DNA of 24,457 bases, taken from IMG/VR virus record IMGVR_UViG_3300048927_000642, positions 1 through 24,457 of that record; one strand, given 5' to 3'. This DNA comes from a virus. The translations under genes and the position numbers were made by a program. The notes beneath the pieces were generated by a model that searched no databases, was not told where the DNA came from, and was given only the letters and a program-made list of their open reading frames with translations. How positions within the stretch are numbered: the first letter of the stretch is position 1; each line of letters starts with the position of its first letter. This document shows, one piece after another, positions 52 through 24,290 of the stretch.

Positions 52-127
<76 letters not shown>

Positions 128-240: not shown

Positions 241-305
241 GTGAGTCAGGCTGTGTGTCAGCGGGCTAGACGCCCCCTGGACGACTCACAGGCGCTCGAC
301 TCACA
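241..305. promoter_or_regulatory. GTGAGTC / GACTCAC repeat cluster upstream of the integrase start
   Basis: GTGAGTC at 241-247 faces two inverted copies, GACTCAC at 283-289 and 298-304; the last touches the integrase start codon. The two inverted copies sit in CGACTCACA repeats 15 bp apart. The same heptamer recurs at 24029-24035 near the right junction. An operator controlling integrase expression, or arm-type recombination sites, would both fit. Confidence 0.4.
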
Positions 306-1519
306 TGCTGACCGACACCAAGTTGCGCTCGCTCAAGCCGAAGGCCAGTCCCTTCCGTGTGGCTGATGCCAACGGCTTGTGCATCGAAGTGCGCCCATCG
401 GGAGCCAAGGTCTGGCGTTACCGCTATCGCTACTTGGGCAAGGCCAGCATCGTCACGCTTGATGAGTACCCCTCAATGTCGCTGCAGGCTGCTCGCGTCG
501 AGCGCGACCGTCTTCGCTCATTGCTGCGCGGTGGGGCCAATCCTGCCCAAGTGGCTCGGGTGGAGAAGGCCGCACATGGCGAGCGGTCCGCCAACACCTT
601 CAGTGCCATCGGCCTTGAGCTGCTGGCAAAGCGCACCAAGGAGGGGCTGTCTCCCGGGTCGGTAGCGCGGGAGCGCCGACTGATCGAGAAGGATCTGGCT
701 GGGCTGGCGGATCTGCCTATCGGAGATATCACTGCTCCGGTGCTGCTGGCTGCCCTCAGGAAGCTGGAGCAGCGAGGCGTAGTCGAGACCGCCCATCGGG
801 CCAGGGCCCATGCCGGTCGAATCTTCCGCTATGCCATCGCCACCGGTCGTGCTGATAGGAATCCGGCCCAGGATCTGACCGGGGCGCTCGAGCAGCCGCA
901 GAAGAAGCACTTTGCGAGCGTGACCGACCCCGCTGTCATCGGCGATCTCTTGCGCGCGCTGTGGGGCTATCAGGGAGCCTTGGTCACCCAGGCGGCGTTG
1001 AAGCTGGCCCCCATGCTGTTCGTGCGTCCGGGCGAGCTGCGGCAGGCGAAGTGGGCCGATATCAATCTGGATGCTGCCGAGTGGCGTTACGTCACCAGCA
1101 AGACTAAAACCCCGCACATCGTCCCTTTGTCCGACCAGGCCGTTGAAGTCCTGCGGGAGCTTTACCCGTATACAAAGCGGAGCGAATTCGTCTTCCCTGG
1201 CGTCCGCAGTGCGCTCAAGCCGATGAGCGAGAACACGATGAACGCGGCGCTCCGAAATCTTGGCTTCGACTCAGACACGATGGTTGGCCACGGCTTCCGA
1301 GCAATGGCGAGAACGGTCCTGGATGAAGTGCTTGGCTATCGCCCGGACTACATCGAGCATCAGTTGGCGCATGCCGTGAAGGATCCGCTTGGGCGGGCCT
1401 ACAACCGGGCAACTCACCTGCCGGAACGCCGGAAGATGATGCAGGCCTGGTCTGACTATCTCGACCAGCTGCGCGTTGCAGAACCGAACGTGCTGGCCTT
1501 CAAAGCCAAGCGCGCCTAA
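305..1519 (+). CDS. int: P4-type tyrosine recombinase (site-specific integrase)
   Basis: A 404-residue integrase that catalyses integration and excision of the element at the neighbouring tRNA. Residues 1-90 match the N-terminal arm-binding domain of P4/CP4-57 integrases (LTDTKLRSLKP, then DANGLCIEVRPSGAKVWRYRY). Residues about 100-200 form the SAM-like core-binding domain. The catalytic domain has Arg241 (VRPGEL), Lys266 or Lys268 (SKTKT), His329 and Arg332 (HGFR), His356 (HQLAH) and the nucleophile candidate Tyr366 (RAYNR). The set is complete and the length is normal for the family. The gene starts 178 bp inside the tRNA end and points away from it. The ATG at 305 overlaps the second CGACTCACA repeat, so the start is tightly linked to a possible operator. 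Confidence 0.95.
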   Translation: MLTDTKLRSLKPKASPFRVADANGLCIEVRPSGAKVWRYRYRYLGKASIVTLDEYPSMSLQAARVERDRLRSLLRGGANPAQVARVEKAAHGERSANTFSAIGLELLAKRTKEGLSPGSVARERRLIEKDLAGLADLPIGDITAPVLLAALRKLEQRGVVETAHRARAHAGRIFRYAIATGRADRNPAQDLTGALEQPQKKHFASVTDPAVIGDLLRALWGYQGALVTQAALKLAPMLFVRPGELRQAKWADINLDAAEWRYVTSKTKTPHIVPLSDQAVEVLRELYPYTKRSEFVFPGVRSALKPMSENTMNAALRNLGFDSDTMVGHGFRAMARTVLDEVLGYRPDYIEHQLAHAVKDPLGRAYNRATHLPERRKMMQAWSDYLDQLRVAEPNVLAFKAKRA

Positions 1520-2130: not shown

Positions 2131-2345
2131 TGGAAGCGACAGCGATGAAAGAGCGTCTCACTGAGCTGCGCCATGCGCTCAACGATGCAGCGCAGGCTGT
2201 ATGGGATATCCAAGGCGTAACCGACCTGCTCCTCAACTCCGGCGAGATGGGAGAGTCGGCGATCCCTCCTGCGGTTCGGGCTGTGGTCAATTTGGTCAAC
2301 GAAAGGGCCACCGCTGTTGCCAAGAAGATCGAGGAGGTCCTGTGA
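2130..2345 (+). CDS. Small helical hypothetical protein
   Basis: A 71-residue, largely helical protein (MKERLTELRHALNDAAQAVW, then VRAVVNLVNERATAVAKKIEEVL). ATG 2130 overlaps the preceding stop (TAATG) and has GAGGG upstream at 7 nt. ATG 2145 is an alternative start. The 3' end carries GAGGAGG, which serves as the ribosome site of the next gene, whose GTG overlaps this stop. It is probably a small regulatory or structural partner; no family is recognised. Confidence 0.6.
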   Translation: MEATAMKERLTELRHALNDAAQAVWDIQGVTDLLLNSGEMGESAIPPAVRAVVNLVNERATAVAKKIEEVL

Positions 2346-2743
2346 GCCGGGCAATCAGCCAAGCTATAACAAGCTCTAACGGAGGAGGGCTCGTCAGTCA
2401 GTCGACGGCCATGGAGGCGGTCTCTGTGGGTGACTGCTCGGCCGGCGAGCGCACTGGGGCAAGTGTCGCCTACGTGTCCGTCAAGGATGATCTGAACGCA
2501 CCAGCCTTGGAGGCTGGCGACGTACTGTTGGTCGATCTCGGTGTTACCCGATGGGGATATGACGGCGTCTACGTCGTAGATGTCAACGGAGAGCCTGTTG
2601 TTCGCTTCGTACAGGACCGAGGCGGTGGAGGACTTTACGTGTACTGCCTGTCGCTCATCGACCAGGGACAATCGGTGCCGCGCGAGTCGGTGCCCATTCT
2701 GGCTGCGGTAATTGCCGTTACGAAGACCAGGAGGATCGCGTGA
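2342..2743 (+). CDS. S24/LexA-like repressor C-terminal domain protein lacking catalytic residues
   Basis: A 133-residue protein starting at GTG 2342, with GGAGG upstream and overlap with the preceding stop. Residues 57-90 (LEAGDVLLVD ... YDGVYVVDVNGEPVVRFVQ) follow the S24/LexA/CI C-terminal pattern (GD.vlvD ... dG.Yvv..nGe..vKr). In active S24 domains a Ser-Met motif precedes this and a Lys acts as general base. Here the upstream segment is NAPALEAGD, and the Lys position is Arg88. It also has no recognisable HTH domain. It may be a non-cleaving dimerisation or anti-repressor-like partner (inference). It overlaps the next gene by 4 nt (GTGA). Confidence 0.6.
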   Translation: MSRAISQAITSSNGGGLVSQSTAMEAVSVGDCSAGERTGASVAYVSVKDDLNAPALEAGDVLLVDLGVTRWGYDGVYVVDVNGEPVVRFVQDRGGGGLYVYCLSLIDQGQSVPRESVPILAAVIAVTKTRRIA

Positions 2744-4438: not shown

Positions 4439-4689
4439 GCGGATTCGACTTCTCCGACCTGAGCGTCGACCAGCGGCGTCTGCTGGACTTCGGTGGCTGG
4501 ACCGCCGATCACCCTCACGCCGAGACCAAGCCAGCCCGCAAGGAGGCTGTGGGTCTGATTGAGCGCGGGCTCCTGCTCGCCGTCAACGTCCGCAGGCGTG
4601 ACACGTACGGTTCCTACACCCTGACCGAGTACCGGGTGCCTGATACCGCTCGCCGGGCATGGGCACTGCACAAGGAGGTCACCCCATGA
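4435..4689 (+). CDS. Small hypothetical protein
   Basis: An 84-residue protein with ATG 4435 overlapping the upstream stop (ATGA). It carries a possible winged-helix-like stretch (ARKEAVGLIERGLLLAVNVRRRDTYGSYTLTEYRV), where a helix is followed by a basic beta hairpin. It is flanked on both sides by HTH regulators in a coupled operon. No family is recognised. AAGGAGG near its 3' end is the ribosome site of the next gene. Confidence 0.6.
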   Translation: MSGFDFSDLSVDQRRLLDFGGWTADHPHAETKPARKEAVGLIERGLLLAVNVRRRDTYGSYTLTEYRVPDTARRAWALHKEVTP

Positions 4690-4916
4690 CTTCCGATGCT
4701 ATCCGAGCCGGCCGAGTGGCAGCCAGGGGGCGGACCTTGATGCGCCTACCCGAGGTAGTCGCGGCCTGCGGTATTTCGCGCTCCCTCATCTACAAGATGG
4801 CGAAGGAAGGCCAGTTCCCCGCGCCCATCCGCGTAGCTGCCCGTCTGTCCGCCTGGGACTCGGAAGCTGTGCAGAGCTGGATCGACTCCCGCTGCGAAGA
4901 AGGGAGGGCGACCTAA
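4686..4916 (+). CDS. AlpA-family transcriptional regulator
   Basis: A 76-residue regulator. Residues 19-70 match the AlpA pattern: LMRLPEVVAACGISRSLIYKMA, then EGQFPAPIRVAARLSAWDSEAVQSWIDSR. This is an HTH followed by the FP.P...... R.. W...E...W segment. In CP4-57 AlpA promotes excision by raising integrase expression. ATG 4686 follows AAGGAGG at about 7 nt and overlaps the preceding stop. Its own stop overlaps the antirepressor start (TAATG). It could serve as an excision switch for the left integrase. Confidence 0.85.
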   Translation: MTSDAIRAGRVAARGRTLMRLPEVVAACGISRSLIYKMAKEGQFPAPIRVAARLSAWDSEAVQSWIDSRCEEGRAT

Positions 4917-5611
4917 TGGCTACTGGAATCGTCCACGTAGAGTTCCACGGGGCCGAACTGATCGGCCGACTCCATCAGGGACAGCCCTTTGTGGCGATGC
5001 GACCCATAGTGGAGGCCATGGGCTTGGACTGGTCCAAGCAGCTGGACAAGCTGAAGTCCCACCCGGTGCTGGCCCGCCAACTGTCTACCTTAAGGGGGAT
5101 GGTTGCTGGCGATGGCAAGGGCCGCCAGATGCAGGCGCTGCCCTTGTCCAGGCTTCCGTTTTGGCTGGCCACGGTCAATCCCAACAAGGTGAAGGCCGCG
5201 ATCAGGGAGCGAGTGATCCTGTTCCAGGAGCAGGCGGCGGATGCCCTTGCAGCTGCATTCCTCTCGAATGGAGCGAGGCAGGATGCGGCAATGGCCAAGC
5301 GCGTCGCAGGGACCGTCATGTGCCGGATCTTGCACGACACGCTTGTGGGCCTTGGCAAGGACCCCAAGGGCTATGACTACGCGACGGAGCATCGCCTGGT
5401 GAACCACTGCATCACTGGTGTGTTCCAAGGCGTGTCCGAGGACTCCCTCTCCACTGACCAACTGAAGCTCCAGCAGGAGCTACGGATGCAGAACGCCGTC
5501 TGGATCGGGCAGGGCATGGCCTACCGGGATCGCAAGCCTCTCCTCGAACAGCACGCGGCAACCTGGTGCCGCACTCAGCACATTGGCTTGGAGGCTTCCA
5601 ATGGCCACTAG
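4916..5611 (+). CDS. Phage antirepressor, P22 Ant N-terminal domain type
   Basis: A 231-residue protein. Residues about 5-115 match the P22 antirepressor N-terminal family: FHGAELIGRLHQGQPFVAMRP, then IVEAMGLDWSKQLDKLK, then LPLSRLPFWLATVNPNKVK and RERVILFQEQAADAL. Known members bind prophage repressors and trigger induction. The C-terminal half (TVMCRILHDTLVGLGKDPKG onward) is of unknown role. In this element it could derepress the element itself or act on a co-resident prophage. It overlaps AlpA by 1 nt and the HNH gene by 11 nt. Confidence 0.85.
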   Translation: MATGIVHVEFHGAELIGRLHQGQPFVAMRPIVEAMGLDWSKQLDKLKSHPVLARQLSTLRGMVAGDGKGRQMQALPLSRLPFWLATVNPNKVKAAIRERVILFQEQAADALAAAFLSNGARQDAAMAKRVAGTVMCRILHDTLVGLGKDPKGYDYATEHRLVNHCITGVFQGVSEDSLSTDQLKLQQELRMQNAVWIGQGMAYRDRKPLLEQHAATWCRTQHIGLEASNGH

Positions 5612-6134
5612 CGCGACTCAAAGGTTGCTGCACGGGCCGAGCGGCCTCTTGGTTTCACCCGCGACAGGAGAGCTCTGGAGCGCCTGCGGTCGTGTGATGG
5701 GCCGCAAGAGCCGAGATGGATACATCCGGGTCATTGTCCGCCTGGCGGGTGGTTCCTGCGCGACTTGGTACGCCCACAGGCTCGTCTGGGAGGTCGTGCA
5801 CGGCTCTGTCCCAAAGTCTATGCAGGTCGATCACCTCGATGGCAATCCGTCGAACAATCGGCTGGGAAACCTTCAGCTAGTGACTGGTTCGGAGAATCGG
5901 CGCCTGCAGCGTGCGCGAAGCATGGCTAAGTACGGCAGCCCTTCTTCCACCTGCAAGCTGAGCATTGCAGAGGTACGAGCAGTGCTACGTACCGTTGGGA
6001 CGGTCCCCACCAGGGTTTGGTCACGTCGATACGGTGTCGATGCTACAACCATCAGGCGCATCCGCCAACGCAAGACCTGGCAGCACGTCGAGGCAGGGAA
6101 GAGCCGTAGGGCTAAACGTTCCAAGCGTGGCTGA
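5601..6134 (+). CDS. HNH endonuclease (phage/homing type) with C-terminal HTH
   Basis: A 177-residue protein from ATG 5601, chosen for GGAGG 7 nt upstream; it overlaps the antirepressor stop by 11 nt. The central motif, residues about 75-102, is VDHLDGNPSNNRLGNLQLVT followed by GSENRR. It supplies the His-Asn-Asn pattern of HNH_3 homing-type nucleases. Residues about 120-165 (CKLSIAEVRAVLRTVGT ... YGVDATTIRRIRQRKTWQHV) look like a DNA-binding HTH. It probably nicks or cuts DNA as a free-standing mobile nuclease. Basic C-terminus RRAKRSKRG. Confidence 0.85.
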   Translation: MATSATQRLLHGPSGLLVSPATGELWSACGRVMGRKSRDGYIRVIVRLAGGSCATWYAHRLVWEVVHGSVPKSMQVDHLDGNPSNNRLGNLQLVTGSENRRLQRARSMAKYGSPSSTCKLSIAEVRAVLRTVGTVPTRVWSRRYGVDATTIRRIRQRKTWQHVEAGKSRRAKRSKRG

Positions 6135-6162: not shown

Positions 6163-6639
6163 ATGCACAGTACAGGCCAAGACCGCGTCCAGCGGTCTGC
6201 AGAGGGCGCTGCCGGCTACACGCCGGCACAGCCCAAGAAGAACATCGACAGGCGGCGACAGAAGCTCCAAGGGCGCTCTAAGGGGCCGCCCTTCCTCATG
6301 ATCGAGCACAGAATCTCCGACTCGCCCGAGTTCGGCAGGCTGTCCGGAAATGCGGTGAAGCTGCTGCTAGAGCTGGCTCGGCAATACCGCCCGGGCAAAA
6401 ACGGCGATCTGAGCATCCCTTGGTCGATGCTGTCCTCGCGTGGATGGAAGAGCAAGGCGACGGTCCACAGCTCCAAGCTGGAGCTCCTGGCCGCAGGTTG
6501 GATCATCGAGACGCGAAAGGGCGGCAAGAACATGTGCAGCCTGTACGCGCTGACGTACTACGCGATTGATGAATCAGCGAAGCACCTAGAACCGTCGACT
6601 GTCACTCCGCCGAACCTGTGGAGGGGACGCCATGGCTAG
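6163..6639 (+). CDS. Winged-helix phage replication-type protein
   Basis: A 158-residue protein. After a basic linker (KKNIDRRRQKLQGRSKG) comes PPFLMIEHRISDSPEFGRLSG, then a winged-helix region (SGNAVKLLLELARQYRPGKNGDLSIPWSMLSSRGW ... LLAAGWIIETRKGG). This arrangement is common in phage proteins annotated as replication or HTH proteins and usually lies at the phage origin. ATG 6163 follows a GGGGGG run; GTG 6127, overlapping the HNH stop, is an alternative. The candidate origin repeats begin exactly at its stop codon, which supports an initiator-like role (inference). Confidence 0.7.
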   Translation: MHSTGQDRVQRSAEGAAGYTPAQPKKNIDRRRQKLQGRSKGPPFLMIEHRISDSPEFGRLSGNAVKLLLELARQYRPGKNGDLSIPWSMLSSRGWKSKATVHSSKLELLAAGWIIETRKGGKNMCSLYALTYYAIDESAKHLEPSTVTPPNLWRGRHG

Positions 6640-6961
6640 TCGCTATGTGGGCCAATGTGGTCGCTATGCAGGCCAATCCCCTAATCAGTTGGCCCGCATA
6701 CAGACCTACGAGGTCGCAATGCAGGCCAGTCACAGGCTTATCCACAGTGGCTCGAGGTCGCTATGTGTACACCCTTCTAGATATATACCAAGCGGAGCGC
6801 GCTTCTACTGCTTCAAGACACTGCCTTTAGGGCTTAGAGCATGGGCGGTCGTTTCGCTCGGAATACGGTGCATCGCAGTGACCGGTTCGCGTGGCGGACT
6901 GGTTCGCCAGACGGACGGCCAGCTCAACGGGGAGGGCGTCTATGGCAGCCCGAGACCATGA
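6632..6961 (+). CDS. ORF running through the origin-like repeats
   Basis: A 109-codon ORF with a good ribosome site (GGAGGGG before ATG 6632) and 8-nt overlap with the upstream stop. The first part encodes the repeat array (SRYVGQ, GRYAGQ), so open frames here may be a by-product of the repeats. A GTG start at 6618 in another frame is also open through the array, to 6830. Similar short ORFs encoded by origin repeats occur in other phages. Translation is uncertain; the DNA function is the stronger explanation. Confidence 0.35.
   Translation: MASRYVGQCGRYAGQSPNQLARIQTYEVAMQASHRLIHSGSRSLCVHPSRYIPSGARFYCFKTLPLGLRAWAVVSLGIRCIAVTGSRGGLVRQTDGQLNGEGVYGSPRP
6639..6768 (+). repeat. Origin-like iteron array with DnaA box
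   Basis: GTCGCTATGTGGGCCAAT (6639-6656) is repeated as GTCGCTATGCAGGCCAAT (6660-6677) and GTCGCAATGCAGGCCAGT (6713-6730), with a half copy GTCGCTATGTG (6757-6767). An inverted copy lies at 6689-6700 (TTGGCCCGCATA). The first two copies start 21 bp apart, two helical turns. A perfect TTATCCACA DnaA box lies at 6738-6746 within the array, and AT-rich TCTAGATATATACC follows at about 6777. Iterons, a DnaA box and an AT-rich stretch next to a replication-type gene suggest a replication origin. Confidence 0.55.
6738..6746 (+). promoter_or_regulatory. Consensus DnaA box
   Basis: TTATCCACA, an exact match to the standard DnaA-binding consensus, placed between the third iteron and the half iteron. 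A single 9-mer can arise by chance, but its location inside the repeat array makes a role in replication initiation more likely. Confidence 0.5.
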
Positions 6962-7685
6962 GCGCTACGTTGAGATGGTGCTGCTGGCGGACGAGGCAGT
7001 CGACTTGGTTGTGAGGGGCATCGCTGGTGCCTTCGGGCTCGGGTCGACTGCCCGGCTCGCCATCCGGCAGGAGCCAAGGCGTCGCCCCGGCGAGGAAGTC
7101 AATTCAGACGACGGGGCGGGCCTTCCGGTCTACCGAGTGCATTCGATTGAGCAGGCCGCGTCCGCGTACCTGCCGACGCGCCCTGGGCCCCGGCAGCAAG
7201 CTCTGGAGTGGTTCAACCCGAAGGACCGTCAGGACGTGATGGAATTCGACCAGAGTGCGCCGATGCGCTCGCGGGCTGCGGCTGATCGTACTCGCCAGTT
7301 GCGGAGTTGGAAGATGCAAGGCTCGCTAACGGTTGTCCCTTCCAGGGGGCCGAGCAGGCTGGTGCTGCATGCAATGGCAGATGCGCAATTGGATGGTCCG
7401 CTTGGCGCCTGGCTGATGCTGTACGCCATCGGTGACGAGAGAGGCTGGCCGTCGGTCTGTCGGCACATGACCGCATGCGGCCATCCGGAGTGGGCCTCTC
7501 TGGAAGCGGTGCGGAGATTGTTGGTTGGCCGTCCCCAGCTGTCCTATCGAGAATCGGCCAAGAACCACGCCCGCCAGGAGCAACGGTTTCGCGCCGAGGT
7601 GCAGTCGGCTGAGAGGCGTTTGCTTGAATGGCTGAGTCGTGCCAGCCGGAGAGTCGCCGCTGCAATGGGCTCTGCCTGCGACTAG
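6942..7685 (+). CDS. Hypothetical protein before the central terminator
   Basis: A 247-residue protein from ATG 6942, chosen because GGGGAGG lies a few bases upstream; it overlaps the preceding ORF by 20 nt. The N-terminal 45 residues form a helix (ERYVEMVLLADEAVDLVVRG). The middle contains ALEWFNPKDRQDVMEFDQ. The C-terminus is basic and helical (ARQEQRFRAEVQSAERRLLEWLSRASRRV). No family is recognised. It lies between the origin and a strong terminator ahead of the virion-type genes. A late-gene regulator such as an antiterminator occupies this place in many lambdoid phages, but no sequence feature confirms that. Confidence 0.65.
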   Translation: MAARDHERYVEMVLLADEAVDLVVRGIAGAFGLGSTARLAIRQEPRRRPGEEVNSDDGAGLPVYRVHSIEQAASAYLPTRPGPRQQALEWFNPKDRQDVMEFDQSAPMRSRAAADRTRQLRSWKMQGSLTVVPSRGPSRLVLHAMADAQLDGPLGAWLMLYAIGDERGWPSVCRHMTACGHPEWASLEAVRRLLVGRPQLSYRESAKNHARQEQRFRAEVQSAERRLLEWLSRASRRVAAAMGSACD

Positions 7686-7777: not shown

Positions 7778-7815
7778 GGGCGGCAGCCCCCGAAGAGCTG
7801 CCGCCCTCTTTTTTT
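7778..7815 (+). terminator. Strong rho-independent terminator
   Basis: GGGCGGCAGC (7778-7787) pairs perfectly with GCTGCCGCCC (7797-7806) around a 9-nt loop, followed by TCTTTTTTT. It separates the early/replication operon from the ejection-protein genes. The latter therefore need readthrough, antitermination or a promoter between 7816 and 7889. Confidence 0.9.
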
Positions 7816-7889
7816 GTCCTGAGAGGTGCGCGAGACATGCCCTCTTGGTGCAGCCGATCGGGCAACTACCAACGGAGCAACTGAATCCA

Positions 7890-9365
7890 ATGGCCACCTT
7901 CTACGAATCCTTCGAGCAGGGCATGCGGAACGGCATGGCGAGGCGGGAAGCGACAGAAAACCGCAACCGACTGGCGGAGCTTCAGTCTTTGGCGCCGCAG
8001 GTCATTGCAGGTGATCTGACCGCGACAGATCGCGCGTATGCGTTGGACCCTCGCAGCGCCCAAGCCTACCAGGCTGAGGGAAGTCGACAGCAAGAAAAGC
8101 TGGTCGGTTTGGCAAAGAGCTTGAAGAAGTACGACGGCAATCCGCAGCTCCAGGCGGCCGTTTACAACTCAGCTATCCCATACCTGTCCCGTAGCTTTGG
8201 AGAGGGAAATATCCCAAAGGTCTGGGACTCTACGGTAGTGATGCCGATTGTCGATCAAGTGCTGGCGGCCGCCGCAGGCCAGCCTACTGCTCAGGGTGAT
8301 CAGTTCACGCTGTCCCCAGGTTCGAAGCGCTTTGACGCTACTGGCAACGTCGTTGCTGAAGTGCCGTTCGCACCGGCCAGCGCCAACGTGATCGATGTCC
8401 CTGATGGGCGCAATGGGTCTATGAAGATGGTGTGGGATCCGGTAATGCGCCAGCTTGCGCCGTTGCCTGGAGCGATGGCAGGTACGGCAGGGACACCCAC
8501 ATCGATGGCAACTTCCGGGGCGGCCGCAGCGACAACAGTATTCCGGGCTCCCAACGGCGAGATCATAGACATGTCTAAGGTCACCGAGCCTGGGCTGCGC
8601 GAGTCGATCTTGCAGAATCCGGAAGAATGGGGGCTGGTGCCGGACGGTGGTAGTGCACAGCTTCCGGATCGGAATATCTCTCCGCCTGGCGGACTCGGTT
8701 ACACGCCTCCCAAGCAACGAGAGGCGCCCAGCGGCTACACGTACCAAGGGCACAGCCTGACGCCGATCCCAGGTGGTCCTGCGGATAACTCATCTCCACA
8801 AGCAGTGGCGAGTGGTGAGCAGAGCTTGCGGAAGGAGGTGACGCAGAACCTCAAGGACGATCAGGGCGTTCTCTCCATGTATCGCAATGTGCAGGCCGCC
8901 GCCAGCCAGCCAAGTGCGGCGGGCGACCTCAGCATGATCTTCGCGTTTATGAAGATGCTCGATCCCGGCTCGGTGGTACGCGAACAGGAGTTCGCAACTG
9001 CTCAAAACGCGGCAGGGGTTCCGGACCAGGTGCGCAATGCCTACAACAAAGCAATCAGCGGCCAGCGACTAAATCCTGCTCAGCGGCAGGACTTCATGAA
9101 TCAAGCGGCCCAGCTCGCGGCGAATGCAGAGGGGCGGATTACCGGGACGACCCGTAAGTATCAGGACATTGCGCGCCAGTACGGATACCACCCCGTACGC
9201 GGCACGGGCATGGCCGACTTCTCCGGAGTTACAAGCAGCGTAAGTGGTGGTCCGCAGGCAGCCGCTGGTCCTGCTCGGCCTCAGACCGAGGCGGACTTCA
9301 ATGCGCTCCCCAGCGGCTCTCTCTACATCGACCCGGACGATGGTCGAACCTACCGAAAGAGGTAA
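7890..9365 (+). CDS. Phage internal virion / DNA ejection-type protein
   Basis: A 491-residue protein. ATG 7890 is chosen because the frame upstream runs through the terminator; GGAG lies about 12 nt before. The N-terminal 70 residues are helical and charged (FYESFEQGMRNGMARREATENRNRLAELQ). The middle is Gly/Ala/Pro-rich. Residues about 335-430 hold the conserved virion segment: DLSMIFAFMKMLDPGSVVRE, then EFATAQNAAGVPDQVRNAYN, then LNPAQRQDFMNQAAQLAANA. This is seen in many podovirus and siphovirus proteins that travel in the virion and help DNA entry. The C-terminus ends LPSGSLYIDPDDGRTYRKR, a common virion-protein tail motif. The next gene starts 3 nt after its stop. Confidence 0.75.
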   Translation: MATFYESFEQGMRNGMARREATENRNRLAELQSLAPQVIAGDLTATDRAYALDPRSAQAYQAEGSRQQEKLVGLAKSLKKYDGNPQLQAAVYNSAIPYLSRSFGEGNIPKVWDSTVVMPIVDQVLAAAAGQPTAQGDQFTLSPGSKRFDATGNVVAEVPFAPASANVIDVPDGRNGSMKMVWDPVMRQLAPLPGAMAGTAGTPTSMATSGAAAATTVFRAPNGEIIDMSKVTEPGLRESILQNPEEWGLVPDGGSAQLPDRNISPPGGLGYTPPKQREAPSGYTYQGHSLTPIPGGPADNSSPQAVASGEQSLRKEVTQNLKDDQGVLSMYRNVQAAASQPSAAGDLSMIFAFMKMLDPGSVVREQEFATAQNAAGVPDQVRNAYNKAISGQRLNPAQRQDFMNQAAQLAANAEGRITGTTRKYQDIARQYGYHPVRGTGMADFSGVTSSVSGGPQAAAGPARPQTEADFNALPSGSLYIDPDDGRTYRKR

Positions 9366-9368
9366 GCA

Positions 9369-11723
9369 ATGGCGCGTTTCGACGGAATCCCGGTGGATCA
9401 GCCGGTCAAGAGCAAGCCGCGATTCTCCGGGGAGCTCGTGCAACCAAGCGCACCCAATGCGACTGCCGCTTCTCCAGGCCCGCGCAGCCAAGTTGCCCCT
9501 GATGGGTGGCAGTACGGGGCCGCGCGAGATGCGGCCTTCGGCGCTCGCTCGGTCTTACAGAGCGCTGGCGGTCTTCTAGGTGCCATTGGCGGCGACGCAT
9601 TCAACAACTACGTCGTCAACCCTGTCGCGCGCGCTGTAGGTATGCAGGAGGCTCGACCTTACAGGGAGGAGGCCGCAGCCTTGGCCGACCGGCTCAACCT
9701 GCCCAAGGCGCAGACTGCGGAGGATCGCGTTCTCGGAGATGTAGGCGAGGCCTTGGCCGGGACAGGCTTTACCCTTGGCACGGGCGGCGGTCTCAATGCT
9801 TTGGCCGCGACGGCGCCGCGCGCTGCCCAAGCTGGGGTTGCTCCTGCCCTGCGTAGTGCGGCACCTGTGGCGCAGAATCGCTTGGCCAACTTCTTGACCG
9901 CCCAGCCTGGGCTGCAGACTGCATCAGCCGCCGCAGGTAGTGCGGCGGCGTCCGGGACTAAAGAGTCGGGTGGATCCCAGGGGATGCAGCTTTTGGCAGG
10001 CCTCGGTGGCGGTTTTGCACCGGGCACCTTGAGCGGACTCGCCAGTCTCGCCACAGCGGGTCGGGTGAGCGCCGCAGGCGCAGTGCCAACGGCTGCGGCA
10101 GGTGTCGCGCGCCGGGCGGCGAGAGGAACTGACGTCTCGGGTGTTCAGGGGATGGTCGATGACTTTGCCGCTGCGGGCACCTCACCTAGTGTCGGCCAAG
10201 CTACCGGTGGTCGTACCGCTAGCGCCCTTGAAACCTACCTCGGCAATACCCCAGGTGGCTCGGGCCATATTGCTCAGCGCGCTGCTGATCAGGCCGCCGC
10301 CGCGCGTAACGCTACCGATAACCTGTCCAACAGGATATCGGCCGGTGGAGCGGATCTCACTCCGACTCAGGTCGGGACGAACGTGCAACAAGGCATCTAT
10401 GGGCCTGGTGGCTTTGTGGATCGAACCCAGTCGGTTTCGGACCGCTTGTATAGCGAGCTGGATCGCCATCTCCCCTCGGGTGAAATGGTTCCGGTCTCCA
10501 ACGCCCGCGGCGCGCTTCGGGAAATCAACGCTGCGATCAGTGGCGCACCAGAGCTCTCGCATCTATTCGATCAAGCGGCCCTCAAGCAGATCGAGGGGGC
10601 TCTAGTGAGCGACACCACTGGGGGAGCGTCGGTCCTCAGTCGTCCTGGGATGCGTGAGAATGCAGCCGCCTACAGGCAGTACTTGGAACGGCAAGCTCAG
10701 GAAGCGGCGGAGAGGAATGCCCGCAGACAGTCGCTGGGAATGACCGTGATGGAACCCGTGCCGAGTCGAGCCGACATCGAGAAGAACCTGAGCAGTACCT
10801 TGGCAAACATGGCGGATGGAACGCTGCCTTATCAGGCGCTCAAGGAGCTGCGTTCAAAGGTCGGTAAGCAGGTGGGCGCCACGTTCCTTACCCGGGATGC
10901 CGCCCATGCTGAGTGGAAGAAGCTGTACTCGGCCTTGTCTCGCGATATGGAGGCTGCTGCTACAACCCCGGAGGCCAAGAAGGCGTTTGCCCGAGCGAAC
11001 AACTACTACCGGCTCCGAGAGCAACGTTTGGACAGCATCGCCAAGATTGTCCAAAAGGAAGGAGGCCCGGAGGCCGCCTACCAAGCCATGTTCACTGGAG
11101 CTCGCAATGGCGCGACTCCTCTAAGGCGCGTAATGGACTCGCTTCCTGCCCAGGTACGTGCTGACGTAAGCGCATCCTTCCTGCAGCGGATGGGGCGCGC
11201 TAGCAAGGCCAATCAGAACGCTGCTGGCGATGCCTTCTCGATGGAGACGTTCTTGAGCAACTGGGCGGATATCAGCCCCGAGGCTAAGAAGCAGCTGTTC
11301 AGCAATGCGCGCTTCGGGACGGACTACGTCCAGAACGTGAACAAGCTGGCGAGGATGGCTGATTCCATCCGCAGCGGCAGCAAGGTGTTCGGCAACCCGC
11401 CAGGCACAGCCAAGCAGACTGCCCTCGGGGTAACCCTGGGTGGCACCGGACTTATCGCCGGGCAGAGCGCGATGCAGGGAAATCTCAAAGACGCAGCGAT
11501 CGCTGTTGCGTCAACCATGGCGCTGGCTGGCGCCAACAATCTGCTGGCCAGAATGATGACCAACCCCAAGGCGGTTCGCTGGCTTGCCCGGAACACCGAG
11601 CGGGATAGCGGCGACATTGCAGGCCAGATCAACACACTGCTGCAGATCGGTAGGGAAGAGGACGACGACGAGCTGGTTGAGCTGGCTCAGCGCCTTAAGG
11701 CTGAGATGGCCGGAGGCCGTTAG
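9369..11723 (+). CDS. Large phage internal virion / DNA ejection-type protein
   Basis: A 784-residue protein beginning MARFDGIPVDQPVKSKPRFSG, an N-terminal motif shared by large podoviral virion proteins. The sequence is Ala/Gly-rich with long helices. Residues about 100-250 include small-residue, membrane-active-like stretches (GTGFTLGTGGGLNALAATAP; SAAAGSAAASG). The C-terminal third has the pattern WKKLYSALSRDMEAAATTPE, RANNYYRLREQRLD and FSMETFLSNWADISPEAKKQ, typical of phage ejection proteins. Near the end is a hydrophobic patch (AIAVASTMALAGANNLLARM). No transglycosylase motif was seen. It is likely packaged and ejected with DNA, forming a channel with its upstream partner. It overlaps the following minus-strand gene tail to tail by 4 nt. 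Confidence 0.75.
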   Translation: MARFDGIPVDQPVKSKPRFSGELVQPSAPNATAASPGPRSQVAPDGWQYGAARDAAFGARSVLQSAGGLLGAIGGDAFNNYVVNPVARAVGMQEARPYREEAAALADRLNLPKAQTAEDRVLGDVGEALAGTGFTLGTGGGLNALAATAPRAAQAGVAPALRSAAPVAQNRLANFLTAQPGLQTASAAAGSAAASGTKESGGSQGMQLLAGLGGGFAPGTLSGLASLATAGRVSAAGAVPTAAAGVARRAARGTDVSGVQGMVDDFAAAGTSPSVGQATGGRTASALETYLGNTPGGSGHIAQRAADQAAAARNATDNLSNRISAGGADLTPTQVGTNVQQGIYGPGGFVDRTQSVSDRLYSELDRHLPSGEMVPVSNARGALREINAAISGAPELSHLFDQAALKQIEGALVSDTTGGASVLSRPGMRENAAAYRQYLERQAQEAAERNARRQSLGMTVMEPVPSRADIEKNLSSTLANMADGTLPYQALKELRSKVGKQVGATFLTRDAAHAEWKKLYSALSRDMEAAATTPEAKKAFARANNYYRLREQRLDSIAKIVQKEGGPEAAYQAMFTGARNGATPLRRVMDSLPAQVRADVSASFLQRMGRASKANQNAAGDAFSMETFLSNWADISPEAKKQLFSNARFGTDYVQNVNKLARMADSIRSGSKVFGNPPGTAKQTALGVTLGGTGLIAGQSAMQGNLKDAAIAVASTMALAGANNLLARMMTNPKAVRWLARNTERDSGDIAGQINTLLQIGREEDDDELVELAQRLKAEMAGGR

Positions 11724-11911
11724 CTGCCGAAGAAGGCCAGAACCGAGTACACCAGCCCAGCGACTGCGGCGAGGCCTAGGGGGACGGCAACGATGGCCAA
11801 GGCGATGGATCTACCGCCAGCCTTCCCCTCCGGGTAGCGCTGGTTGAAGGCCTCGCTCTTCATGGCGTCCCAGCTCTTCTGGGGAGCGTAGTTGTTGGTC
11901 TTCCAGTCCAT
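11720..11911 (-). CDS. Small single-span membrane protein
   Basis: A 63-residue protein, from the ATG with its first base at 11911, with AAGG about 8 nt upstream. A GTG 15 codons upstream is less likely. The N-terminal 35 residues are soluble and polar (MDWKTNNYAPQKSWDAMKSE). Residues about 37-61 form one hydrophobic span (SIALAIVAVPLGLAAVAGLV). It is the only minus-strand gene inside the central block. This is the arrangement of a moron gene expressed in the integrated state, for example for membrane-level exclusion. The function is unknown. Confidence 0.6.
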   Translation of the reverse strand: MDWKTNNYAPQKSWDAMKSEAFNQRYPEGKAGGRSIALAIVAVPLGLAAVAGLVYSVLAFFGS

Positions 11912-11992
11912 GGCACTGCCTTGATCGGTGTAAGCCGACTGAATCGTAGCACCCACTGAGGGTGGGAGCCCTGCGTAGAGGAATTGATCCCC

Positions 11993-12673
11993 ATGAGGAA
12001 AGAAAGCCCATCAGCAGGCGGCGCCAACCAGCGTGCGGCGCAGCTGGATGTGCCTCTGGAGACCGGCCAGACCCTAGAGGAGAAGTCGGCCAGGCTGATT
12101 GCTGAGGGCATTGCTAGCAATGCCTTCGTCAGCCTGCTGTTTGCACAGCACTCTGGGGTAGCCGGCGGGACCGAGCTAAACGAGCTCGTGAAGTCGACCC
12201 GAGCGGCGGTAGGGCGGGCCGCCAAGGGCGAGACCGACCAGGCCGATGGGCTGCTGACCAGCCAAGCCATTGCCCTGAATGCGGTTTTCTTGGAGATGAG
12301 CCGTCGAGCGGCACTAAACATGGGACAGCACATGGGCGCCATGGAGACCTACATGCGGCTGGCCCTGAAGGCGCAGTCCCAGTGCCGGACCACCCTAGAG
12401 ACCCTGGCCGAGATCAAGAACCCGAGAGCCGTGGCGTTCGTGAAGCAGGCCAACATTGCCGGCGGCCACCAGCAGGTGAACAACCATGCCCCGGTTGAGG
12501 CCGGGCGCGCGGAAAGCAAAAGACGGCCGAACGAACTATTGGAGGAGATCTCAGATGCGCAATGGCTGGACCCCAGAGCGGCGCCGGCGGCAGGCGCAGG
12601 CAATCCAGAACTGGCGACCGTGGGAGCACGCCACCGGCCCGCGCAGCGTCGAAGGAAAGGCCAAGGCGGCTAG
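11993..12673 (+). CDS. Phage-associated protein of the QANIAGGHQQVNN family
   Basis: A 226-residue protein from ATG 11993, with GAGGA about 10 nt upstream; TTG 11984 is less likely. The middle is a helical, conserved region: LTSQAIALNAVFLEMSRRAA, then METYMRLALKAQSQCRTTLETLA, then KQANIAGGHQQVNN. Proteins of this kind are frequent in proteobacterial prophages and islands, usually next to a small basic protein and the small terminase. The biochemical role is unknown. The C-terminus is Arg-rich. Its last 119 nt overlap the next gene in another frame. Confidence 0.7.
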   Translation: MRKESPSAGGANQRAAQLDVPLETGQTLEEKSARLIAEGIASNAFVSLLFAQHSGVAGGTELNELVKSTRAAVGRAAKGETDQADGLLTSQAIALNAVFLEMSRRAALNMGQHMGAMETYMRLALKAQSQCRTTLETLAEIKNPRAVAFVKQANIAGGHQQVNNHAPVEAGRAESKRRPNELLEEISDAQWLDPRAAPAAGAGNPELATVGARHRPAQRRRKGQGG

Positions 12674-12746
12674 AAACGCCTGGAAGGGCGGGGAGCGGAA
12701 GGCGCTCCGTCAGCTGGCCGCTGTCCTTCGGGAAGTCAGGGGCTAA
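12555..12746 (+). CDS. Small basic phage-associated protein (HATGPRS...GK motif)
   Basis: A 63-residue protein, MRNGWTPERRRRQAQAIQNW, then RPWEHATGPRSVEGKAKAAR, then NAWKGGERKALRQLAAVLRE. The W.P..HATGPRT.EGKA..ARNA pattern is familiar from short basic proteins immediately upstream of phage terminase genes. ATG 12555 has GGAGGAG upstream. It overlaps the upstream gene by 119 nt in a different frame. It may bind DNA during packaging, but that is inference from neighbours. The next sequence is a degenerate small-terminase-like stretch. Confidence 0.7.
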   Translation: MRNGWTPERRRRQAQAIQNWRPWEHATGPRSVEGKAKAARNAWKGGERKALRQLAAVLREVRG

Positions 12747-14001: not shown

Positions 14002-15090
14002 ATGTCCGGATACTTCAAGGTGTCGATGGGTGCGGCAAAGGCCATCGCAAATGCAAGTGAAGGGCCGGATCTGCTCGCCGGCTATATGACGCTGGCGTCA
14101 TACGCCTATGGTCCGAAGCGCGAGCATACAGCTGCGGGCGCGAAAGCGATTCGCCTGACAACTGGATGCTCCGACTTCCGTTCAAAGAAGGTTCTGAAGC
14201 GCCTTCTTTCATTCGGGGCGGACCACGGGTTGCCTCAAGGTCTGATAAGCGCGACCGGGCGTAAGAAGGCCAACGCTGACGAATACAGGATCGAGCATTG
14301 GGGGGATGAATTTGCCTATCTGCCATCCCTGCTCACCGATCGGCATCCTGAATTCGGGTCGCATCTTGCTCGGCTCCTGCTGATGGATGAGCCAGAGTCG
14401 GCCATCAGAGATGCCTTGACTGTGCTCCTACACGTGTATGCGTCCACTGACTACGCTGAGTGGTTTGGTTGCCCGCCTGACACCATGCCCTACAGAGATT
14501 GGCAACAGTCCGGGACTGCTGGCCAGGACTTTGAGCTTGGGTATCAGGGTGACGTCGGCGCGCTTCAGCTGTGGCTTGTTTCTGAGAGAGAGGAGGAAGC
14601 TTGGCGAGTTCCGCGCCAAGTAGTTACTAGCCTATTTGGGTCTGACTCCGAGGACAGCATTGCCCGCTTCTGGAGAGCCTGGGACTGTCTGATCGAAGCG
14701 GGGTCCCTCGTCACCGTGGTGTCGGTGCAATCCGGAGGGCGGGCCTACCCCCTGTGGGTGTACTCCAAGGGCTATCGGCAATCCCTAATGGAGCACCATG
14801 GAATCGTTGCCGATCTTGGGAGGGAGGCGCAGCTCGCAGCCTGTGCAAGCGGGCTTGATCCAGACAATCTGGTGATCCGATACGCAGTCGACGATCTGGA
14901 GGGAGCCGGATCGGGGCTCTTCTACTGTTTCGGCAAGTCGCCGAAAGTGCGAACCATCGTAGCCCCCCGCCTGCACGCGCCGACTCCTCTGAACCTTGAT
15001 GGTCTCAAGGAGGCCGCTGCGGTGACCAAGAACATCTCTAGGGAGATCCGGGCAGCCCGCCGCGCGGACCGTGAAACATACGCTGGGTAA
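14002..15090 (+). CDS. Putative winged-helix DNA-binding, possibly replication-initiator-type protein
   Basis: A 362-residue protein; ATG 14002 has GAGGG about 10 nt upstream. The N-terminus (YFKVSMGAAKAI ... LLAGYMTLASYAYGPKREHT, then AIRLTTGCSDFRSKKVLKRLLSFGA) follows the winged-helix pattern of plasmid and phage Rep-like or regulatory proteins: a helix, then a T.AG...I...TG.S..R.K..L..L..FG segment. The remainder shows a second similar segment (WRVPRQVVTSLFGSDSEDSIARFWRAWDCLIEAGSL). It has its own long leader and is followed within 6 bp by phased short repeats that could be its binding sites. The family is not identified with certainty. Confidence 0.6.
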   Translation: MSGYFKVSMGAAKAIANASEGPDLLAGYMTLASYAYGPKREHTAAGAKAIRLTTGCSDFRSKKVLKRLLSFGADHGLPQGLISATGRKKANADEYRIEHWGDEFAYLPSLLTDRHPEFGSHLARLLLMDEPESAIRDALTVLLHVYASTDYAEWFGCPPDTMPYRDWQQSGTAGQDFELGYQGDVGALQLWLVSEREEEAWRVPRQVVTSLFGSDSEDSIARFWRAWDCLIEAGSLVTVVSVQSGGRAYPLWVYSKGYRQSLMEHHGIVADLGREAQLAACASGLDPDNLVIRYAVDDLEGAGSGLFYCFGKSPKVRTIVAPRLHAPTPLNLDGLKEAAAVTKNISREIRAARRADRETYAG

Positions 15091-16665: not shown

Positions 16666-17307
16666 TTGGCGGGCCCCATAAGGACCCAGGTCTTGAGCAT
16701 CCTCAACGTTCTACTGCGTCCTGACCAGCTTCTTGTCGCGGTCGACACGTTGGCCGAGGACGCGCTGACCGGAGCGCCGTCTGCGGGAGCGAAGCTACTA
16801 CTGATCCCCCAGCACAATCTGGTTCTGGCGACTCGCGGGAGCGCGCAGTTCTTCCTGCGTATCTATGAATTGGCGCTACAGGCCAGCTTCCGCGCAGACT
16901 TCACCATGGAACAGCTCGGCAGAGAGCTGGGGCTTGTAATTGACCAGCTTTGGCCGGCCTACGAAAAGGCCGCTCATGAAGCAGGGATATCCCCAGAGGC
17001 GATAGGCACCGAGCTCGTCCTGGGCGGGTGGTCGCGTCAGGCGGGCCGCATGGTGGCCACCGCATATGCCAAGAGCGACAGTTCGCGCAAAACGCTGGTT
17101 CAACCTCTAGATGGGGGCCTGGCCTCGCCCGGAGAGCCGTTGGCTGGCAGGCCCGATAGCTTTGCCGAAGCCGATTTGCTCGCTGCCGGAAAGCTCCAAG
17201 CCGCTTGGCTCAACAATCGGGTGGGGCGAGAGGCGGCTGGCGGCCGCTTGCTGGCTGGGTTCCTGCAGAAGAGCCAAGCCGTCGTGAAGGATCTCGGGGC
17301 GATATGA
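16666..17307 (+). CDS. Hypothetical protein, possibly Ntn-hydrolase-like
   Basis: About 213 residues if the TTG at 16666 is used; TTG 16693, with AAGGA nearby, is an alternative, and the start is uncertain. The order LLVAVDTLAEDALTGA, KLLLIPQHNLVLATRGSAQF, then IGTELVLGGWSRQAGRMVAT faintly recalls Ntn-hydrolase or proteasome-like folds: a Dt.a.d start, K.. ip.. l....G, and a v..gGwS strand. No N-terminal nucleophile can be assigned. The comparison is by eye and weak. The C-terminal 60 residues are of low complexity (LASPGEPLAGRPDSFAEADL). Confidence 0.6.
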   Translation: MAGPIRTQVLSILNVLLRPDQLLVAVDTLAEDALTGAPSAGAKLLLIPQHNLVLATRGSAQFFLRIYELALQASFRADFTMEQLGRELGLVIDQLWPAYEKAAHEAGISPEAIGTELVLGGWSRQAGRMVATAYAKSDSSRKTLVQPLDGGLASPGEPLAGRPDSFAEADLLAAGKLQAAWLNNRVGREAAGGRLLAGFLQKSQAVVKDLGAI

Positions 17308-20624: not shown

Positions 20625-21554
20625 CTACGGGATCTTGCAGATTGCATCCGTCAGGTGTTCCGGCGACAGGTGGGCATAGCGCCGCGTCATCGCCATGGAG
20701 CTGTGCCCAAGCACCTCCGACACCGTGTGTAGGGGCACGCCAGCCTGCACCAACCATGAGGCGCACGTGTGCCTCAGATCGTGCCAGCGGACGTGTTCCA
20801 GGCCGCATGCAGCACGTGCCTTGGCCCAAGAATCCCGCACCTGATCGTCTGTAGCGCCCAAGGGGAGTCGCGCAGCGATCCCTGCCACCCTCGGGTGCAG
20901 CGGGACCAGTTGCAGCGTCCTTGTCTTGCTGCTTCGGTCTAGGTGAAGGAACCCGCCCCGCACCTCATGCGCAGTCAGGCGGAGCAAATGGCCCCGCCGA
21001 ATCCCTGTGTAAGCCGCCAGCCGCACATAGTCACCCGCAGCCGCGTTGGGGCAGGCCCTCGCCAGCGCTTCGACCTGATCGAGCGTCAGGAATGTCTCGC
21101 GGGGCTTCTCAGGCAACAGGCCAATCGCAGCAGGCCGTTCCAGCCAACCCCACTCGCGCCATGCCATCCGGCTGATCTGCCGTAGGATGCGCCCCTTGTG
21201 GTTCACCGTCGCCGGGGCCTTGCCGATCTCCGCAGCCTTCACCTCTGCCCATACCTGGGCGATCTCCCCCAGCTTCCGACCCGCGATGTAGGGCAGAAGC
21301 GCCCGAACGTGAGCCTTCGTCTTGGGGGCCGAACGCAGACGCGGTACGTGGTCCGTCAGCCAGCGCTCGACTGCATCGGCGATCACTCGTTCCGGCTCTC
21401 TACCGGCCGCAATGTCCTTGAGCGCGGAGATGTACCTGCGTTCGTAGTCTTTCGCGTCTTTGTACGACCAGTGTCGAGAAGTCTTGCGATGCGTTCTTCC
21501 GCCGTATCCGACGGTAACTTGATAGTGACCATTGGCGCGCTTGGTGATGGGCAT
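20625..21554 (-). CDS. int2: Second tyrosine recombinase (phage-type integrase)
   Basis: A 309-residue integrase from the ATG at 21554 (MPITKRANGHYQVTVGYGG), a typical phage-integrase start; an in-frame ATG ten codons upstream is possible. The N-terminal arm-binding part comes first, then the core-binding domain (about residues 55-140). The catalytic set is complete: Arg186 (YTGIRRGHL), Lys210 (SSKT), His258 and Arg261 (WHDLRHT), His284 (LGHSS) and Tyr293 (RRYAHL). His replaces the usual Glu after the Arg box. It overlaps the upstream HTH gene by 172 nt in another frame. It is distinct from the left integrase in family, so it may belong to an older or nested element. The direct attachment site is not identified. 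Confidence 0.9.
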   Translation of the reverse strand: MPITKRANGHYQVTVGYGGRTHRKTSRHWSYKDAKDYERRYISALKDIAAGREPERVIADAVERWLTDHVPRLRSAPKTKAHVRALLPYIAGRKLGEIAQVWAEVKAAEIGKAPATVNHKGRILRQISRMAWREWGWLERPAAIGLLPEKPRETFLTLDQVEALARACPNAAAGDYVRLAAYTGIRRGHLLRLTAHEVRGGFLHLDRSSKTRTLQLVPLHPRVAGIAARLPLGATDDQVRDSWAKARAACGLEHVRWHDLRHTCASWLVQAGVPLHTVSEVLGHSSMAMTRRYAHLSPEHLTDAICKIP

Positions 21555-21745
21555 AGCGTCTTGGCCCTGCACTTGCCCAGCCATACGGCCAGGTCTAGGG
21601 GGTGAATCCTGTCTGACTTCGGGCCTTGGCCCAATCGACACGCGGCCAGCTCGCCTATGTCTATGGCGCGGCGAAGGGTTCGTGGGTGGCAGGCACAAAG
21701 CTCCGCCGCCTGAGCGAGTGTCATTAGCTTGTCAGTCGGAACCAT
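21383..21745 (-). CDS. Excisionase-like HTH protein overlapping integrase 2
   Basis: A 120-residue protein starting at 21745, sharing one base with the upstream stop (TGATG), so coupling decides the start. Residues 8-57 (MTLAQAAELCACHPRTLRRA, then IDIGELAACRLGQGPKSDRI, HPLDLAVWL) are an HTH_17/excisionase-type domain. The C-terminal half (TIKLPSDTAEERIARLLDTG, then Thr/Arg-rich) overlaps the 5' end of integrase 2 by 172 nt. It is likely the directionality factor or regulator of that recombinase. Confidence 0.75.
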   Translation of the reverse strand: MVPTDKLMTLAQAAELCACHPRTLRRAIDIGELAACRLGQGPKSDRIHPLDLAVWLGKCRAKTLCPSPSAPMVTIKLPSDTAEERIARLLDTGRTKTRKTTNAGTSPRSRTLRPVESRNE

Positions 21746-22113
21746 CAGCCCTTGCCCCTTCGTTGGTCATAGCGCCTCAGGCGAGCAAGAGCCTCTTCCA
21801 CCTGCGCAGATCTTGGAGCCACAGATGGAGTGCTGGAGCCAACACGCCCACGCGTGGTCCAGTCGCTGGCGTTGTGAATAGCCCGATAGAGTTCACTCTT
21901 CTCATAGAGCTGCTTGCCCATGAAGTTCCTGGGGACAAGGCCGAGATCGGGAGCGTTCTTCCGGAACTGGCCAGACGACACACCGCAATAGTGCGCCGAC
22001 TCGTCAACAGTGAGCCACTCCTTGCCTGAAATATCGAAGCGAAGGACCGCCAACTGCTGGCGGAGAGCCTTGATCTCGTCCTGCAGGGAAATGTCGGGTT
22101 CAGAGGTGTCCAT
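21745..22113 (-). CDS. HTH / coiled-coil regulator upstream of integrase 2
   Basis: A 122-residue protein. The N-terminal helix (LQDEIKALRQQLAVLRFDIS) looks like a coiled coil for dimerisation. It is followed by WLTVDESAHYCGVSSGQFRK and GLVPRNFMGKQLYEKSELYR, an excisionase-like HTH and wing ending in a Y.k.EL.rai helix. The stop is fused to the next start (TGATG). It forms a three-gene minus-strand module with the HTH protein and integrase 2. Confidence 0.65.
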   Translation of the reverse strand: MDTSEPDISLQDEIKALRQQLAVLRFDISGKEWLTVDESAHYCGVSSGQFRKNAPDLGLVPRNFMGKQLYEKSELYRAIHNASDWTTRGRVGSSTPSVAPRSAQVEEALARLRRYDQRRGKG

Positions 22114-24099: not shown

Positions 24100-24113
24100 T
24101 GGTGGGCCCACCA
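24100..24113 (+). repeat. Right attachment core (attR)
   Basis: TGGTGGGCCCACCA, an exact direct copy of the tRNA 3' end at 114-127. The bases flanking it differ from the left copy on both sides, so the shared core is 14 bp. It marks the right end of the element. Confidence 0.85.
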
Positions 24114-24137
24114 TTGCATTCAATGGCTTAGGCCATC

Positions 24138-24166
24138 AAAAAGGCACTGCCCTGCGGTGCCTTTTT
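24138..24166 (+). terminator. Rho-independent terminator, probably the original tRNA terminator
   Basis: AAAAAGGCAC (24138-24147) pairs perfectly with GTGCCTTTTT (24157-24166) around a 9-nt loop. It starts 25 bp after the attR core. In an unoccupied chromosome it would lie right behind the tRNA, so it is likely the displaced tRNA terminator. The A/T-symmetric arms make it bidirectional. Confidence 0.85.
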
Positions 24167-24290
24167 CGTTTGGTGCCTACTTGGTGGCTGCATTCCCGGC
24201 AGTGCCCATGCCGCTGTTGGGAGCTGCCATTCTTCGCGCCCCCTGCTGCACTTCGGAGCTGAGCCAGCGCAGCCTTCTCCCGATGGCTCC

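Follow-up and report, generated by a model that had tools for sequence, protein, structure and literature searches.

P22-type ejection genes as an exchangeable cassette in probable phage satellites of Xanthomonadaceae

Introduction

Known phage satellites steal packaging from other phages and resize or replace capsids. In their general plan, the Gram-negative and capsid-forming phage-inducible chromosomal islands (PICIs) resemble the elements described here, with an integrase, an AlpA regulator, small size, cargo genes and dependence on a helper, the last of which is only inferred for our family. Some of these PICIs carry one or several phage late genes, and genes for capsids or for the redirection of packaging are frequent among them, whereas the family described here has no recognised capsid or terminase gene and carries an ejection module instead. 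P4-like satellites, PLE, PICMI and tycheposons likewise depend on helpers and borrow their virions, but no ejection module is described for them in the literature that we found, although no gene-by-gene comparison was made. Complete phages, such as SEN22, Mx8 and a prophage of Pseudoxanthomonas koreensis, possess homologous gp14, gp7, gp20 and gp16 genes in the same order. There, the ejection (injectosome) genes lie inside a full structural operon, whereas in our family they stand alone behind a terminator.

The closest precedent is EcCIMP1, a 19,963-base PICI of E. coli MP1. It has been shown to excise upon induction of the P22-like phage Kapi1 and to be transferred by this phage at low frequency (PMC11773190). 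The authors proposed a packaging role for the genes of its late module without testing them, and an exchange of the cassette is not discussed in the accessible part of the text (PMC11773190). EcCIMP1 resembles the element described below in its size of about 20 kb, its tRNA site, integrase, AlpA-family regulators and antirepressor and in the absence of capsid and terminase genes. It differs in its E. coli host, in the use of tRNA-Thr and in the presence of a primase, and its backbone is unrelated except for the integrase (36% identity) and AlpA (31%). We found no paper combining phage satellites with ejection proteins, and the function of a satellite-borne ejection cassette is, as far as could be found, previously undescribed.

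Results

Gene arrangement of the window element

The analysed stretch of DNA (in the following called the window) corresponds to an IMG/VR record with a length of 24,457 bases. It is best read as a small mobile element of Xanthomonadaceae, namely an integrated, PICI-like phage satellite, for which helper-dependent excision, replication and packaging are inferred. Its backbone consists of the following features.

52..127, plus strand: tRNA-Met(CAT) gene, the integration target (ARAGORN)
114-127, plus strand: candidate att core, the last 14 bases of the tRNA-Met gene, TGGTGGGCCCACCA
305..1519, plus strand: tyrosine integrase of 404 amino acids (Pfam Arm-DNA-bind_3, Phage_int_M, Phage_integrase)
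2201..2743, plus strand: C-terminal region of a CI-like repressor, weak match (phrog_4, E 8e-7; phrog_6201, E 4e-5)
4659..4916, plus strand: AlpA regulator downstream of the integrase (Phage_AlpA, E 3e-12)
4916..5611, plus strand: Ant antirepressor with P22_AR_N domain (Pfam, E 1e-33; phrog_524, E 1.5e-40)
5583..6134, plus strand: HNH endonuclease (PF13392, E 6e-19)
6216..6639, plus strand: conserved backbone ORF, possibly replication-initiator-like on a very weak match only (phrog_18020, E 0.11)
6942..7685, plus strand: orf264, conserved backbone gene of unknown function, left edge of the cassette slot, present in the other members, no family match
11993..12673, plus strand: orf229, unknown function, conserved backbone gene 3′ of the cassette, no family match
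14002..15090, plus strand: variable cargo slot, occupied by an ORF of 362 amino acids in the window
16693..17307, plus strand: orf204, conserved right-arm gene, 42–83% identical in members read that far
24100..24113, plus strand: candidate attR, identical to the last 14 bases of the tRNA-Met gene

This arrangement meets three criteria for a PICI-like satellite: an integrase with a tRNA attachment site, an AlpA-type regulator 3′ of the integrase and no complete set of virion genes. The criterion for a capsid-forming PICI, own capsid and packaging genes, is not met. Among possible replication genes, the window has a single, very weak O-like match, and no primase was recognised.

The same tRNA-Met gene lies 5′ of the integrase in seven further contigs (L003, L004, L020, L175, L217, L218 and L219) and in 11 Xanthomonadaceae genomes, and a pattern search for tRNA-Met yielded many intact sites. 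The right boundary is uncertain because the flank 3′ of the candidate attR (24100-24170) resembles the region following tRNA-Lys in related genomes. Either a common att core of the two tRNA genes or a rearrangement of the region may account for this.

The earlier note on this DNA had stated that capsid, portal, tail, large terminase and lysis genes are missing. This is borne out: searches of the window with Pfam, with PHROGs and by tblastn, the last with the structural proteins of Mx8, MW202867, SEN22, the P. koreensis prophage and other podoviral contigs as queries, revealed no recognisable gene for a capsid, portal, terminase, tail or lysis protein. The packaging-neighbourhood genes that the note had placed behind the two large genes could not be substantiated, as orf229 and an ORF of 86 amino acids there match no packaging family. 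The only packaging-like match in the window belongs to orf204, but its similarity to a 218-position profile labelled terminase (E 9e-5) is too weak and too short, and we rejected this assignment. Neither a packaging site nor a terminase-redirecting protein was identified in the element.

Two intact homologues of P22 gp20 and gp16

The two large genes, for which features of ejection proteins and intact reading frames had been noted, are located directly next to each other.

7890..9365, plus strand: ejection gene 1 (ej1), P22 gp20-like, 491 amino acids, intact frame
9369..11723, plus strand: ejection gene 2 (ej2), P22 gp16-like, 784 amino acids, intact frame

Both observations hold; the assignment to ejection proteins rests on matches to phage proteins, profile comparisons and operon order. 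The product of ej1 contains the conserved domain phrog_13634 (E 6e-35), the domain that is best conserved among P22 gp20-type proteins, and matches a “virion structural protein” of Mx8 and a “DNA transfer protein” of Salmonella phage SEN22. In a profile comparison with the SEN22 protein in the gp20 position, a probability of 97.6 was obtained (E 3e-12). The product of ej2 matches an “ejection protein” of Pan3 and, by profile comparison, the SEN22 protein in the gp16 position (probability 92.8, E 4e-7). In five reference phages (Mx8, MW202867, SEN22, Pan3 and VSN-002) the homologues adjoin each other near the end of the virion operon, and an iterated profile search found the pair adjacent in podoviral contigs that also have coat, stabilisation or tail-accessory genes. 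Comparison at the sequence level thus confirmed both genes as real, intact homologues of gp20 and gp16. Structural predictions added little: the AlphaFold models are of low confidence (mean pLDDT 60 and 67), fold searches with them returned mostly unnamed proteins of tailed phages, and a search of solved structures by sequence gave nothing meaningful.

A family of capsid-less elements at one site

Searches with the gp20 domain, a gp16 alignment and the integrase, together with 395 Xanthomonadaceae genomes, yielded at least 21 related elements that share one backbone, consisting of the integrase (beside tRNA-Met where the contigs reach that far), the HNH endonuclease and orf264. AlpA, Ant and orf204 are present in many of them. 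Exact peptide patterns of ej2 found no relatives in GTDB genomes; these were reached via the conserved gp20 domain and then through whole genomes of the family. According to the cassette they carry, the members fall into the following types.

Type A: the window, L002, L003, L004
Type A′: L170, L171, L172
Type B: L020, L021, L023, L038, L175, L186 and the genomes G378 and G382
Type C: L178, L179, L200, L217
Type D: L218, L220

All members lack a capsid gene, and all have a cassette in a single slot 3′ of orf264. The three other type A contigs, also from IMG/VR, share the genes of the window and their order; the same tRNA-Met is reached in two of the three. The satellites of the genomes G378 and G382 sit on chromosomal contigs that exceed 4 Mb. 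One further genome, G171, retains the integrase, fragments beside the slot and the right arm, but its cassette is gone. The comparison that the earlier note had suggested, a search for the same gene set at the same tRNA in other genomes, returned relatives at tRNA-Met without a structural module there (0 of the 20 other members).

Conservation of the backbone varies from gene to gene. The integrase is 78–99% identical among members where covered, and the ORF at 6216..6639 is 38–87% identical where found, with no tblastn match in L175. AlpA is kept in types A, A′ and C and was also found in type D, whereas most type B members have no AlpA of the window type at that place (L175 and L186 have 34% matches). 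Likewise, types A, A′, C and D share orf229 at 46–92% identity, and type B has a different ORF at this position.

We also observed a decayed ejection pair in Lysobacter prati (L096:9437-12507), in which the gp20-like gene has an apparent lytic transglycosylase motif and gp16 is in three pieces. In L003, the cargo slot holds a complete Lamassu defence system (LmuA, LmuC and LmuB; L003:14299-17818). A cargo slot with a defence system is typical of satellites.

The ejection genes are swapped as a block and kept by selection

Alignment of the family members delimited the exchanged segment, which is listed here with two features at its borders.

7778..7815, plus strand: strong intrinsic terminator just 5′ of the cassette (10-bp GC stem, nine-base loop and T7; checked by folding)
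7816..11969, plus strand: swapped block (ejection cassette) between constant junctions
11720..11956, minus strand: small convergent ORF at the cassette end, membrane-protein-like by eye, about 97% conserved in type A, no family

At the nucleotide level, the window is 81–90% identical to L178, L179 and L200 up to position 7815 and about 90% identical again from 11969/11970; between these junctions, the gp16 proteins are only about 35–48% identical. Backbone genes remain 75–99% identical while other ejection modules take the place of the cassette. The left junction lies at 7815 in L178, L179, L200, L217 and L220 and at 7782 in L218, and coincides with the T-run of the terminator. Types A, A′, C and D all have this terminator, with stems of differing sequence, but it was not found in type B. 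Late phage genes are often transcribed only when termination is overcome. From the conserved terminator at the left junction we infer that transcription of the cassette may be independent or may require antitermination.

The content of the cassette differs between types. Types A and B have the order gp20, then gp16, and the gp20-like gene of type B possesses a lytic transglycosylase domain and matches an “internal virion protein with endolysin domain”. Type C cassettes comprise gp14-like, gp7-like, gp20-like and gp16-like genes in the order of P22, with matches to “minor coat protein”, “DNA ejection” and “released from the phage upon host infection”. Type D has two genes of the right size and in the right place without a recognised family, which were counted by position and size only.

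For type A pairs with dS up to 1.6, dN/dS was 0.07–0.17 for ej1 and 0.07–0.14 for ej2, compared with 0.02–0.04 for the integrase. In the other types most pairs ranged from 0.03 to 0.2, with higher values for gp20 between L178 and L217 (0.46) and for gene 1 of type D (0.35). Because these ratios are low, we conclude that the ejection genes are maintained by selection; the relaxed selection that would have spoken for decay was not seen in ej1 and ej2.

The same exchange in EcCIMP1-type satellites

Inspection of the EcCIMP1 DNA revealed an ejection module of the same P22 type as in our family, comprising DUF2824/gp14, gp7, gp20 and a gp16 with lytic transglycosylase domain. Identity to Kapi1 is 83% for gp14 and 57% for gp7 but only 26% for gp20 and 24% for gp16, so the latter two differ from those of the helper. 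Nine further queries from the virion and packaging genes of Kapi1 gave no match in EcCIMP1. In its close relative PEC131, the integrase, AlpA, Ant, primase, gp14 and gp7 are 97–100% identical to those of EcCIMP1, whereas gp20 is 48% identical over 188 amino acids and gp16 has no detectable similarity. With the backbone kept and gp20 and gp16 different, the same kind of exchange has occurred in a second, distantly related satellite lineage.

Another EcCIMP1 relative (L303, E. coli NZ_CM151362.1) has annotated P22-gp17 and P22-gp16 family ejection proteins and a gp20 marked as a pseudogene. EcCIMP1-type cassette sequence gave partial matches in 657 of 5,426 complete E. coli genomes and matches with at least 80% coverage in 69; some of the partial matches may be prophages.

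Comparison with complete phages and search for a helper

In a comparison of the element with phages that have related ejection genes (13 sequences, complete or partial), matches were confined to the ejection genes, the integrase (29% identity) and one weak match of 48 residues. Prophage relics other than the ejection genes, which would be expected after decay, were not seen in this comparison.

Genes for P22-type coat proteins occur in 11 of the 395 Xanthomonadaceae genomes, and the P. koreensis prophage has a portal gene along with ejection genes. The two satellite-bearing genomes G378 and G382 lack a P22-type portal and neither was listed in the coat search, so no resident helper was found in them. 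In two isolate contigs, of G403 and G404 (L251-L256), the satellite adjoins a related tailed prophage whose integrase lies near that of the satellite; no P22 portal was found in either.

Interpretation of the ejection cassette

An element without shell genes but with its own, exchanged ejection genes suggests a mobile element that rides in the shell of another virus and controls its own entry. We consider it likely that the window is a satellite that borrows the shell of a podoviral helper and supplies its own ejection proteins, an arrangement that the earlier note had raised as unusual. It is supported by the absence of a structural module from all 20 relatives, the low dN/dS and the EcCIMP1 precedent. 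Packaging and a helper in Xanthomonadaceae are inferred, as is the entry of the proteins into helper particles, and there are no data on particles, excision or transfer. In a cell in which a P22-like podovirus is also growing, the satellite would excise and replicate, and its DNA would be packaged in the helper procapsid. The ejection proteins of the satellite would be built into these particles, replacing those of the helper or mixing with them. On infection, they would leave the particle first and form a conduit by which the DNA crosses the periplasm and the inner membrane. A cassette swap would then adapt the satellite to other helpers or to the envelopes of other recipients.

The earlier note had named a degraded prophage as the plain alternative, that is, a phage whose genes for head, tail, packaging and lysis were lost. 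The two genes do derive from podoviral late operons, and Lysobacter prati has a decayed relative whose ej2 is broken into three pieces. Yet 21 members share the same capsid-less plan, their ejection genes are under purifying selection and were repeatedly exchanged as blocks, and almost no gene other than these is common to the element and the P22-like phages compared, which renders this origin very improbable. A stronger competitor, albeit an unlikely one, accepts the element as a satellite or island but gives the ejection-like proteins an intracellular role against phages, as an exclusion module; they might, for instance, poison the ejection machinery of a superinfecting phage or of the helper. 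The swapping of cassettes as a block, as known for defence modules, would fit, and EcCIMP1 contributes to the superinfection immunity of Kapi1 lysogens without a known defence gene; however, it restricts neither Kapi1 induction nor the infection of non-lysogens (PMC11773190). In addition, type C and EcCIMP1 also keep gp14 and gp7 in virion order, which goes beyond the need of an inhibitor, and lytic transglycosylase domains fit a passage through the periplasm. Use in particles is favoured because the four virion genes are kept in order.

The helper might also be a phage of a different type, such as the siphovirus-like prophage beside the satellite in G403 and G404, which lacks a P22 portal and has a long gene that resembles a tape-measure gene; the ejection genes would then serve another reason or an unknown particle. 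We regard this as improbable, since gp14, gp7, gp20 and gp16 are particle genes of short-tailed phages, this neighbour was seen in only two members and may merely share an integration hotspot, and the only tested satellite with the module, EcCIMP1, uses a P22-like helper.

If the satellite does borrow a podoviral shell, satellite-supplied DNA-delivery proteins would be a control point different from packaging and capsid size, and would explain why relatives among satellites differ mainly in one late-gene cassette. Whether these elements from Xanthomonadaceae and E. coli represent a broad, unrecognised class of satellites of short-tailed phages that hijack both packaging and entry, with the exchangeable ejection cassette deciding on DNA delivery and hence on the recipients, is a question on which the evidence leaves us evenly divided. 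The cassettes constitute a natural set of interchangeable ejection modules. Because they are interchangeable, gene removal could be used to test which features of the recipient the P22-type ejection proteins recognise, and the pair of EcCIMP1 and Kapi1 offers a working laboratory system for this question.

Additional modules in the right-hand regions

At the right end of the window, a second integrase and two excisionase-like ORFs are encoded on the minus strand (20625-22113). This region is 92% identical in G171 and 73% identical in L186, and represents a tandem element or a second recombination module. In L002 (18916-20563) and in G378, the right-hand regions of the two islands have in common an AlpA gene together with a replication gene of the YagK/YfjJ type.
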